Both the position numbers and the translations under genes were made by a program. This document shows, one piece after another, positions 9,821 to 48,822 of a stretch of 50,591 bases of DNA. Source of the DNA: a bacterium (lineage in GTDB: Bacteria; Patescibacteriota; CPR2; UBA1875; JAJYID01); assembly GCA_021796415.1 (NCBI GenBank), contig JAJYJC010000006.1:1-50591 (forward strand), written 5' to 3'. How positions within the stretch are numbered: position 1 is the stretch's first letter; each line of letters opens with the position of its first letter. The notes under the pieces are model-generated. The model searched no databases. It was not told the DNA's origin and saw nothing but the letters and a program-made list of their open reading frames with translations.

Positions 9821-9854
9821 CTTTCAGATTTTCTCGACTTCATACTATCTTTTT

Positions 9855-9932
9855 GTCATTCCCGCGCAGGCGGGAATCTATATAATCTGGATTCCCGCCT
9901 GCGCGGGAATGACAAATTTGGGCGGGAACGAC
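9855..9932. repeat. dispersed hairpin repeat GTCATTCCCGCGCAGGCGGGAATC
   Basis: Two inverted palindromes plus a third partial copy. Confidence 0.85.
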
Positions 9933-18612: not shown

Positions 18613-18643
18613 TCTAAAAAAACTTCCGGGTTCGGAAGTTTTT
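18613..18643 (-). terminator. Rho-independent terminator of rplU
   Basis: AAAAAACTTCCG-AACC-CGGAAGTTTTTTT on the minus strand. Confidence 0.9.
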
Positions 18644-18972
18644 TAGCTTATTTTTTCTATTTGGACTTTTGTCAGTTTTTGCCTGTGTCCTGTCTTCTTT
18701 CGATAATTTTTTTTCGGTTTGTATTTAAAGACCACAACCTTATCGGCTTTTTCCTGGGCTACAACCTTTGCTGTTACTTTTGCTTTTTCGATTTGCGGTG
18801 TACCGATCTCAACCCTGTCGCCTTCCGCAACCAGCATTACTTCGTCAAATGCTATGCTCTTGCCTTCTTCGGCTTCGATTTTCTCAACACTCAAAACATC
18901 ACCTTCGGAAACCTTGTATTGCTTTCCGCCGGTCTTAATAACTGCAAATTTTGATTTTTTTTCTTCAGCCAT
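18643..18972 (-). CDS. rplU: 50S ribosomal protein bL21
   Basis: FAVIKTGGKQYKVSEGD ... FKYKPKKNYRKKTGHRQ; start could be 18984. Confidence 0.95.
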   Translation of the reverse strand: MAEEKKSKFAVIKTGGKQYKVSEGDVLSVEKIEAEEGKSIAFDEVMLVAEGDRVEIGTPQIEKAKVTAKVVAQEKADKVVVFKYKPKKNYRKKTGHRQKLTKVQIEKIS

Positions 18973-19022
18973 AATATTTACCAACTAGTAAAGTTTAGCA
19001 GAATACCCTGCTTTGGTCAAGG

Positions 19023-19892
19023 CTAAAAGTCGGAGACATTTTCAAGAAAATCCCAGAATTGCGGCCAGGTTTTATTCACAGCTTTCGGAAACCGGAATTG
19101 AACCTTCTTCTTATCAACCATGCCCTTCATCGCAATCGCTTGTACGACCCTATGGTCCTGTGACTCGATGGTTCTTTCTTGGTTATAATTTCTTAGCTCC
19201 TTTTCCATTTCGTTTATTCGATCGCTTTCGTGACCTCGCAGGCTGGGCCACATTTTCTCGCCCGCTTCTTTTGTTATAAGATTAAAGGCTCTTGCAAAAC
19301 AGTAGTCTTCTGCCTGTTTTGGGATAAATGTTATTTTTCCTTTTTTTATAAAGTCCAGAAGGGATTTTGCTTGCTCGAAGATAGTCTGATCAAAGCGAAA
19401 TTCCCAATCCTGGTTATACAGGTTTTTCTTATTCCAGTAGTCAATCGCTTCATAGGTTAAAGCTAGTTTGAAAGGAGGATTTTCTATTCTCTCTTGATCA
19501 CCGCAAAGCGCTGAGATGCTGGCCCACTGTGAAGTTCCATTATCTAATGTGAGGAGTTTACTTTGAGAATAAAATACAATTTCCGGATTATTGGTTATTT
19601 TCCTATTTTTTAGGGTCTTATGAGTATGAAACTCTTTTATAAGTCCCTCTTTCCAAGAGATAAACTGCAAATATCTATATATAGTGCCCGATTCGCCGAC
19701 ATCGATTACCTCTTCCTTATCCCATTCCACCAGAATTCTCTTCAGTGCTCTTAAGTCGTCACTCAGGAGCTCTTGTTCATCCAGTAGCCTTTCTGCTCTA
19801 TCAGATTTTCCATGCAATAAATCAAGAATAGCCATCCTCATTGCCCACGATTTATCAAGAGGAATATATTTTTTGAGTTCTTTTTTTAACAT
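19023..19892 (-). CDS. divergent, shortened EPSP-synthase-like (enolpyruvyl transferase family) protein
   Basis: LDKSWAMR, DVGESGTIYRYL, GTSQWASISALCG, LRGHESDRINEMEKELR, DHRVVQAIAMKG, NKTWPQFWDFL. Confidence 0.7.
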   Translation of the reverse strand: MLKKELKKYIPLDKSWAMRMAILDLLHGKSDRAERLLDEQELLSDDLRALKRILVEWDKEEVIDVGESGTIYRYLQFISWKEGLIKEFHTHKTLKNRKITNNPEIVFYSQSKLLTLDNGTSQWASISALCGDQERIENPPFKLALTYEAIDYWNKKNLYNQDWEFRFDQTIFEQAKSLLDFIKKGKITFIPKQAEDYCFARAFNLITKEAGEKMWPSLRGHESDRINEMEKELRNYNQERTIESQDHRVVQAIAMKGMVDKKKVQFRFPKAVNKTWPQFWDFLENVSDF

Positions 19893-19893
19893 T

Positions 19894-20994
19894 TTAAAAA
19901 TCAATTTTCTTGTGCCTGATGTGGATACTTTCCAAAATTCCAAGCGTCACGAAAGTAACAACGATCGATGAACCTCCAAGGCTGATTAAGGGCAAAGGGA
20001 TACCTGCAACCGGCGCAATGCCCAGATTCATGCCGACATTTAAAAATACATGGAAGGCGAGCATGGCGGCAATGCCAGTCGACAAATACATGCCGAAGTA
20101 GTCGCGTGACTTAGCCGCTATCATAATCCCTCTGGCTATCAGGACCGCGAATAGCAAAAGTACTATCGCGGCGCCTAAAAATCCCATTTCTTCCGCAAGC
20201 GCCGCAAATATAAAGTCGGTGTTTTTTTCGGGAATAAAGTTGAGCTGAGATTGGGTGCCACGACCCAGGCCTTGCCCGAGCATCTGGCCGGAACCAATGG
20301 CGATAATTGCCTGACTCACATTGTACCCCGTTCCTTTAGGATCACTTGCCGGATTTACAAGCGAGATGATTCTCTTTTTTTGATAACTATGCATAAATGT
20401 CCAGCTGACCGGCAAAAGAAGCAATGCCGCCGTTGCCAATATAATGAAGTGCTTTAGCTTGATCCTGCTGACGGCAAGCATTGCTATCCATATCACAATC
20501 AAAACCAGCGCCGTGCCAAGATCAGGCTGCAAGAGGACCATTACCGCCGGAATAAGAAAGTAGATCCCGGAAACGACAATACGTTTGAACTGATGCATAT
20601 CTTCGGCAAATTCACTGAAGTACTTTGCCATTATCACAATAAGGAAAAGCTTGGCAAACTCAGACGGCTGAAATTGAAAACCGGCAATGCTTATCCAGCG
20701 CGTCGCGCCGAGGGCAGTCTTGCCCAAGATGAGAACCACCGCAAGAGAAAGGATAGTTAAAACATACAAAACGCGGCTCCAGCCTTTCATGGTCCTATAA
20801 TCAAAAAAGGCCGCCGCCAGAAACCCTATCACGCCGATTAAGCCAAAAACGCCCTGCTGGATAGCCTCCTTGGCGCTTCCCGAGGTGCCAAATGTTGTGG
20901 AGTAAATAGTGGCAACACCGATTGAGAAAAGCAAAAGGGCTGTGATTATAATAACCCAGTCAAAGTTTCTAAAATTTCTTAAGTTAAAAAACAA
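19894..20994 (-). CDS. rodA: SEDS family protein RodA
   Basis: GFQFQPSEFAK, LQPDLGTALVL, PLPLISLGGSS. Confidence 0.93.
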   Translation of the reverse strand: MFFNLRNFRNFDWVIIITALLLFSIGVATIYSTTFGTSGSAKEAIQQGVFGLIGVIGFLAAAFFDYRTMKGWSRVLYVLTILSLAVVLILGKTALGATRWISIAGFQFQPSEFAKLFLIVIMAKYFSEFAEDMHQFKRIVVSGIYFLIPAVMVLLQPDLGTALVLIVIWIAMLAVSRIKLKHFIILATAALLLLPVSWTFMHSYQKKRIISLVNPASDPKGTGYNVSQAIIAIGSGQMLGQGLGRGTQSQLNFIPEKNTDFIFAALAEEMGFLGAAIVLLLFAVLIARGIMIAAKSRDYFGMYLSTGIAAMLAFHVFLNVGMNLGIAPVAGIPLPLISLGGSSIVVTFVTLGILESIHIRHKKIDF

Positions 20995-21041: not shown

Positions 21042-21200
21042 TTGTCATCCCCGCTTTTTTGTCATCCCCGCTTTTTTTGTCATTCCCGCGAAGGCGGGAA
21101 TCTATATAATAAAATCGCAATTCTGAATTCTGGATTCCCGCCGGAGTTTATGCTGAACTCTGATTCAGTGCGGGAATGGCAAATTAGGGCGGAAATGACG
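21042..21200. repeat. cluster of dispersed hairpin repeats
   Basis: GTCATCCCCGC tandem fragments, then GTCATTCCCGCGAAGGCGGGAATC ... GATTCCCGCC...GCGGGAATGGC. Confidence 0.8.
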
Positions 21201-48635: not shown

Positions 48636-48739
48636 CTTTTTTCCCTTTTTCCCATCAAATCTTATCCCCTTATCTTACTATTACATTTTATTTCTCCGTC
48701 ATTCCTATTCATTTTCACGCCATTCCCGCACATTTCCCT

Positions 48740-48806
48740 GTCATTCCCGCATAGGCGGGAATCTATACAAATAAAATTCTGGATTCCTGCCTTCGCGGGA
48801 ATGACA
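48740..48806. repeat. dispersed hairpin repeat
   Basis: GTCATTCCCGCATAGGCGGGAATC...GGATTCCTGCCTTCGCGGGAATGAC. Confidence 0.85.
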
Positions 48807-48822
48807 AAACGGATACCCACAT

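Follow-up and report, generated by a model that had tools for sequence, protein, structure and literature searches.

The gene analysed here lies at positions 19023..19892 on the minus strand of the window, i.e., the whole stretch of 50,591 nucleotides that was analysed, and its translation yields 289 amino acids without an internal stop, terminated by a TAG codon (19023-19025). Homologues were found in genome scans, and the gene is referred to as mini-EPSPS-like (EPSPS: EPSP synthase) and its relatives as the mini family. Its neighbours, given for context only, are rodA upstream (19894..20994, minus strand; PF01098, E 2.2e-100) and rplU, encoding the ribosomal protein bL21, downstream (18643..18984, minus strand; PF00829, E 3.6e-39). 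The original prediction placed the start of the gene one nucleotide after the rodA stop, and the coordinates agree, as the ATG is at 19892 and rodA ends at 19894, which leaves a single base in between. A functional link to rodA, also predicted, found no support. The gene order around the mini gene differs between lineages and is kept only inside one CPR family (f1), to which the adjacency is restricted, so that the rodA link is a matter of local position. A general functional coupling to rodA or to peptidoglycan was rejected, as the neighbours vary in each lineage beyond this family, including archaea without MurA. The host genome (903 kb, 49 contigs, 90% complete) encodes a proper full-length MurA elsewhere (L001).

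Other neighbourhoods show features of their own. Genes similar to purD (PF01071/PF02843/PF02844) are located directly upstream of the mini gene in a CPR contig (L021:4677-6020) and approximately 1.4 kb upstream of it in a DPANN contig (L017:3293-4612), and purD was seen in no neighbourhood besides these two; on these grounds a link of the mini gene to purine synthesis was set aside. In a nanoarchaeal contig (JAHJRB010000108.1; L023:1330-5942) a run of TrpRS/TyrRS-like genes lies directly upstream of the mini gene; two of these match PF00579 and the two proteins of ~333 aa encoded between them appear TyrRS-like without a Pfam match, so that the run is possibly a cluster of aminoacyl-tRNA-synthetase paralogues. 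The window contains REP-like palindromes (GTCATTCCCGCG..GCGGGAATC) at 9853-9915, 21077-21102 and 48738-48807, with five matches vs none in shuffled sequences, and in two other loci (L108 and L014) a transposase-like gene resembling REP-associated ones is found near rplU.

Distribution, loss and selection

The mini family comprises 17 intact members of 282-318 aa and is known to date from Patescibacteria (CPR) and Nanoarchaeota/Woesearchaeota (DPANN) alone. Outside the family of the window, the CPR copies stem from Yanofskybacteria and further bins resembling Patescibacteria (L016, L018, L020, L021, G366, G082, G321), the DPANN copies from Woesearchaeota/Nanoarchaeota (L017, L019, L023, G655, G413, G667, G732, G592, G725). 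The gene is rare: the phylum of the window yielded it in 8 of 382 genomes sampled, five of these from its own family, the phylum of G383 in 8 of 380, and the class of G387 in 1 of 387, namely G387 itself. Weak matches in these samples in frames of ~390 aa or longer represent AroA-like proteins and not mini members. The profile sampling covered two phyla and was accompanied by one pattern scan of all species. An alignment-based scan of the genome contigs returned ten loci, a single-sequence scan no match. Carriage by phages or plasmids was rejected, as tblastn gave no match among 50,697 records of the former and 72,556 of the latter. No description of the family was found in the open-access literature, with subscription papers and preprints outside the scope of this search.

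Within the family of the window four other genomes carry the mini gene, flanked by rodA and rplU in every case in which the neighbouring genes can be seen. Complete copies occur in G000, G007 and G009; in G008 the gene lies in two parts at contig ends, in G005 three in-frame stops break it, and G006 and G004 have none, so that it was lost or broken in three of seven family genomes. The rodA gene of G006 shows 95% DNA identity, and in place of the mini gene ~190 nt of unrelated sequence, part of it a repeat, lie between rodA and rplU there. Decayed copies with in-frame TAG/TGA codons are located at G005:C6:76904-77755 (L004), L023:6298-6300 and L087:6462-7408; next to the three stops in G005, a single TAG was found in L023, and a TAG together with a frame break in G321. 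These three copies are consistent with frequent loss. Recoding of the stops in G005, L023 and G321 was considered and rejected in favour of decay, G321 also having the frame break. The intact copies are under purifying selection (dN 0.26-0.35, dS above 1.1 or saturated). In a tree of the 17 proteins CPR and DPANN sequences are separated, with weak support (60/84), and the most divergent member is archaeal; a transfer of the gene from archaea to bacteria is possible.

Relationship to AroA and predicted fold

The motifs of EPSP synthase that had been noted in the protein, i.e., DKSWAMR, GESGTIYR, TSQ, HESDR, DHR and NKTWPQFW, are all present in this order and are collinear with Escherichia coli AroA (EC 2.5.1.19) in an HMM-HMM alignment. 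In hhalign, a profile of the 17 mini members matched a profile built from CPR/DPANN AroA and E. coli AroA with an E-value of 1e-11 over 273 columns, collinear across AroA columns 16-430, and if the C-terminal block was dropped the N-terminal match was still collinear (7e-6, 50 bits). As controls for this match, 20 column shuffles stayed at or below 18 bits and the reversed profile gave 17 bits. MurA (UDP-N-acetylglucosamine 1-carboxyvinyltransferase) shares one superfamily and the PEP chemistry with AroA, and the AroA and MurA profiles match one another at 3.5e-29. The mini profile matched the MurA profile with 15.7 bits and a probability of 0.1%, which is the level of the shuffles. As the AroA match exceeds the controls while the MurA match does not, the mini protein is specifically AroA-like.

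Searches with existing models point to aroA and not to murA, with weak scores for the individual proteins. The window protein is matched by TIGR01356 (aroA) with an E-value of 3e-10 and 39.4 bits, not reaching the equivalog cut-off of 287 bits; of seven mini proteins compared with NCBIfam each matches this model, the six others with 27-39 bits, far below the cut-off, and none of the seven matches TIGR01072 (murA). PF00275 reaches 23.7 bits at a gathering cut-off of 22.8 with the C-terminus alone (residues 240-282), and in genome scans most mini relatives score under this cut-off. The protein being a MurA paralogue was rejected on the basis of the MurA profile at shuffle level, the lack of a TIGR01072 match and the DKS..R / DHR / KSWP signature, which is of the AroA type and unlike MurA. 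Homology to the EPSPS superfamily is near certain. In full-length AroA of CPR/DPANN (L031-L044, L072-L084) the C-terminal signature NKSFPxFW is very close to NKSWPQFW of the mini family, which suggests a derivation of the mini family from this AroA type. In contrast to the mini proteins these enzymes have ~390 aa or more, and none of the genomes in which a mini member was confirmed was found to encode a recognised full-length AroA of this type.

AlphaFold2 models the window protein (12 sequences; mean pLDDT 93.8, pTM 0.90) with 17 helices and only two strands of at least three residues, and with an archaeal member as query the model (pLDDT 89.6, pTM 0.87) again is nearly all helix. For both models the sole high-probability Foldseek matches in the PDB were EPSP synthases, among others 2o0b, 7m0o, 8umm, 1mi4, 1rf4 and 2gg6, over the full chain with gaps (TMq 0.46-0.61), and no other fold in the PDB exceeded a probability of 0.06. 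With E-values of 0.04-1 these matches are not significant alone and back the sequence result, and AlphaFold may lean on memorised EPSPS structures. No match was obtained against viral models. An unrelated fold or the lack of any enolpyruvyl transferase profile match would have spoken against the original prediction; both were looked for, and neither was found.

The predicted shortening by more than 100 residues was likewise borne out, with 289 aa compared to 427 aa in AroA. In E. coli AroA the segments between the anchor motifs alternate between 26-28 and 42-71 residues. The mini family keeps the short segments (~27 residues), and its long segments are cut throughout to ~24-27 residues, corresponding to losses of 24, 22, 10+15, 44 and 19 residues. 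The simplest reading is that the outer strands were systematically removed and the inner helices kept.

Active site and pathway context

The equivalents of E. coli K22, R27, D49, R100, R124, Q171, E341, R344, D384, H385, R386 and K411 are present in 17 of 17 mini proteins, which includes the complete PEP-site set K22, R124, Q171, E341, R344, H385, R386 and K411. DKSWAMR (residues 13-19; 19836..19856, minus strand, as for all following positions) corresponds to K22/S23/R27 at the PEP and acceptor carboxylate sites, with K14 and R19 in 17/17 and S15 in 16/17 members. GESGTIYR (66-73; 19674..19697) corresponds to GNAGTAMR 93-100 of E. coli; G69 is found in 14/17 (Ala in the other three, G96 in E. 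coli) and T70 in 16/17 (T97), and E67 is found in 17/17 at the position of N94, which in AroA is Asn in 17/26 and Glu in 2/26. The exchange G96A renders E. coli EPSPS glyphosate-insensitive (PMC8983318). R97 (19602..19604; 17/17) is equivalent to R124, in E. coli a contact of PEP and glyphosate (PMC3411725). T120-S121-Q122 (19527..19535; 16/17, 15/17 and 17/17) corresponds to S169-S170-Q171, i.e., the phosphate side of shikimate-3-phosphate (S3P) plus Q171, and the position of Y200 is Phe or Tyr in 15/17. DHR (246-248; 19149..19157) is equivalent to D384-H385-R386, each 17/17, and K274 within NKTWPQFW (273-280; 19053..19076) is equivalent to K411 (17/17).

Two further positions differ from AroA. 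E195, followed by D196 (19305..19310), is located at the position of D313, the acceptor hydroxyl contact, which is Glu in 16/17 and Asp in 1/17 mini proteins vs Asp in 26/26 AroA, an equivalence taken from the profile alignment and less certain than those of the motif-embedded positions. In HESDR (221-225; 19218..19232), equivalent to K340-E341-T342-D343-R344, H221 is found in 17/17 vs Lys in 26/26 AroA, and E222 and R225 are 17/17. Three changes mark the mini family, N94 to Glu (17/17), D313 to Glu (16/17) and K340 to His (17/17). EPSPS contacts both hydroxyls of S3P through its terminal domain, whereas the carboxylate and the phosphate of S3P are bound by the central domain (PMC8983318). D313 and K340 both sit in the terminal domain. 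The mini family retains the S3P carboxylate and phosphate contacts S23, R27, S169 (conservatively Thr), S170 and Q171, and has other residues where AroA uses D313 and K340 for the hydroxyls; the acceptor would therefore be expected to carry a carboxylate and a phosphate and to present its hydroxyls differently.

The original prediction had pointed out that no other shikimate gene is nearby; this holds, and neither aroC nor aroE occurs anywhere else in the genome, which is 90% complete. None of 20 holder genomes searched contains aroE; aroC was found in two, G725 and, damaged or masked, G667, and not in the other 18. No recognised full-length AroA was found in the holders. The full-length PF00275 proteins of the bacterial holders are MurA-like, two by TIGR01072 and the others by sequence (one copy in G321, L051, lies outside this classification), and the DPANN holders have no full-length PF00275 protein except for a MurA in G725. 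With DPANN bins of uncertain completeness, the absence of a single gene carries little weight and the joint absence more. G725 is a case of its own: chorismate synthase is encoded there as a stand-alone gene, together with full-length MurA (L105:6373-7494 and L101), and aroE and full-length AroA are missing, which points to an unusual remnant of the pathway or else to contamination of the bin.

Proposed function and its alternatives

The best explanation, with a probability of roughly 0.6, is that the product of the mini gene is an enolpyruvyl (carboxyvinyl) transferase that arose from an AroA-type EPSP synthase by miniaturisation and has as its acceptor a phosphorylated carboxylate, probably not S3P. 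Those helices that face the interdomain cleft with their N-termini would have been kept, and most of the β-strands outside them lost. PEP would be bound in the ancestral way and the enolpyruvyl group passed to a hydroxyl of a small acceptor bearing a carboxylate and a phosphate, the hydroxyls of which would be presented unlike those of S3P (D313 to Glu, K340 to His), and the enzyme would act as a stand-alone accessory in CPR and DPANN cells. Catalysis as enolpyruvyl transferase is likely, and an acceptor different from S3P is moderately favoured. The originally proposed uncharacterised branch of enolpyruvyl transferases is thus backed by profiles, structure prediction and active-site conservation; its different acceptor is plausible, given the replaced hydroxyl-binding residues and the pathway missing in the holders. 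An even chance is given to the full description as a new family that uses neither S3P nor UDP-GlcNAc as acceptor and is built on an EPSPS fold reduced, by deletion of most β-strands, to an almost all-α active-site shell, occurring sporadically in CPR and DPANN as a solitary accessory gene.

The protein could instead be a minimal EPSP synthase, which forms EPSP from PEP and S3P that is host-derived or made via an unrecognised route. The retained PEP site and S3P contacts (S23, R27, S170, Q171, Phe/Tyr for Y200) fit this, E195 and H221 might be two mutually compensating changes with which S3P is still accepted and could stand in for D313 and K340 via a reciprocal length swap, and G725 combines a chorismate synthase with a mini protein and MurA as its only candidates in place of AroA. 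However, D313 and K340 are invariant in the 26 compared AroA and replaced in the mini family, and as aroE is missing from 20/20 and aroC from 18/20 holders, EPSP would lead nowhere in the majority of them, which makes this reading unlikely. Reuse of the fold for binding PEP or another phosphorylated metabolite without enolpyruvyl transfer, as sensor, binding protein or in another PEP reaction such as hydrolysis, is quite unlikely. The loss of the β-sheets is drastic and could reflect a switch to a binding or regulatory role, the three acceptor-side changes are fixed and no pathway partner was found, but the catalytic cleft is invariant in both its halves across bacterial and archaeal members, the equivalents of K22, E341, H385 and K411 included, which goes beyond what binding should require. 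That the gene is a functionless, decaying AroA remnant would account for the in-frame stops in G005, L023 and G321 and the clean absence from G006 and G004; this reading, already disfavoured, is very improbable, as length and motifs are held in all 17 intact copies, bacterial as well as archaeal, the same shortening recurs throughout and dN is far below dS in the closest pairs.

In EPSP synthase, the enzyme blocked by glyphosate, and in MurA, both textbook enzymes, size and fold hardly vary. A natural and conserved version that is one third smaller, with the sheets largely gone and the active site kept, would show the minimal fold needed for catalysis. The mini family further suggests a gene passed between bacterial and archaeal radiations with similar lifestyles, and an unknown enolpyruvyl metabolite in two ultra-small, probably symbiotic groups without aromatic biosynthesis.
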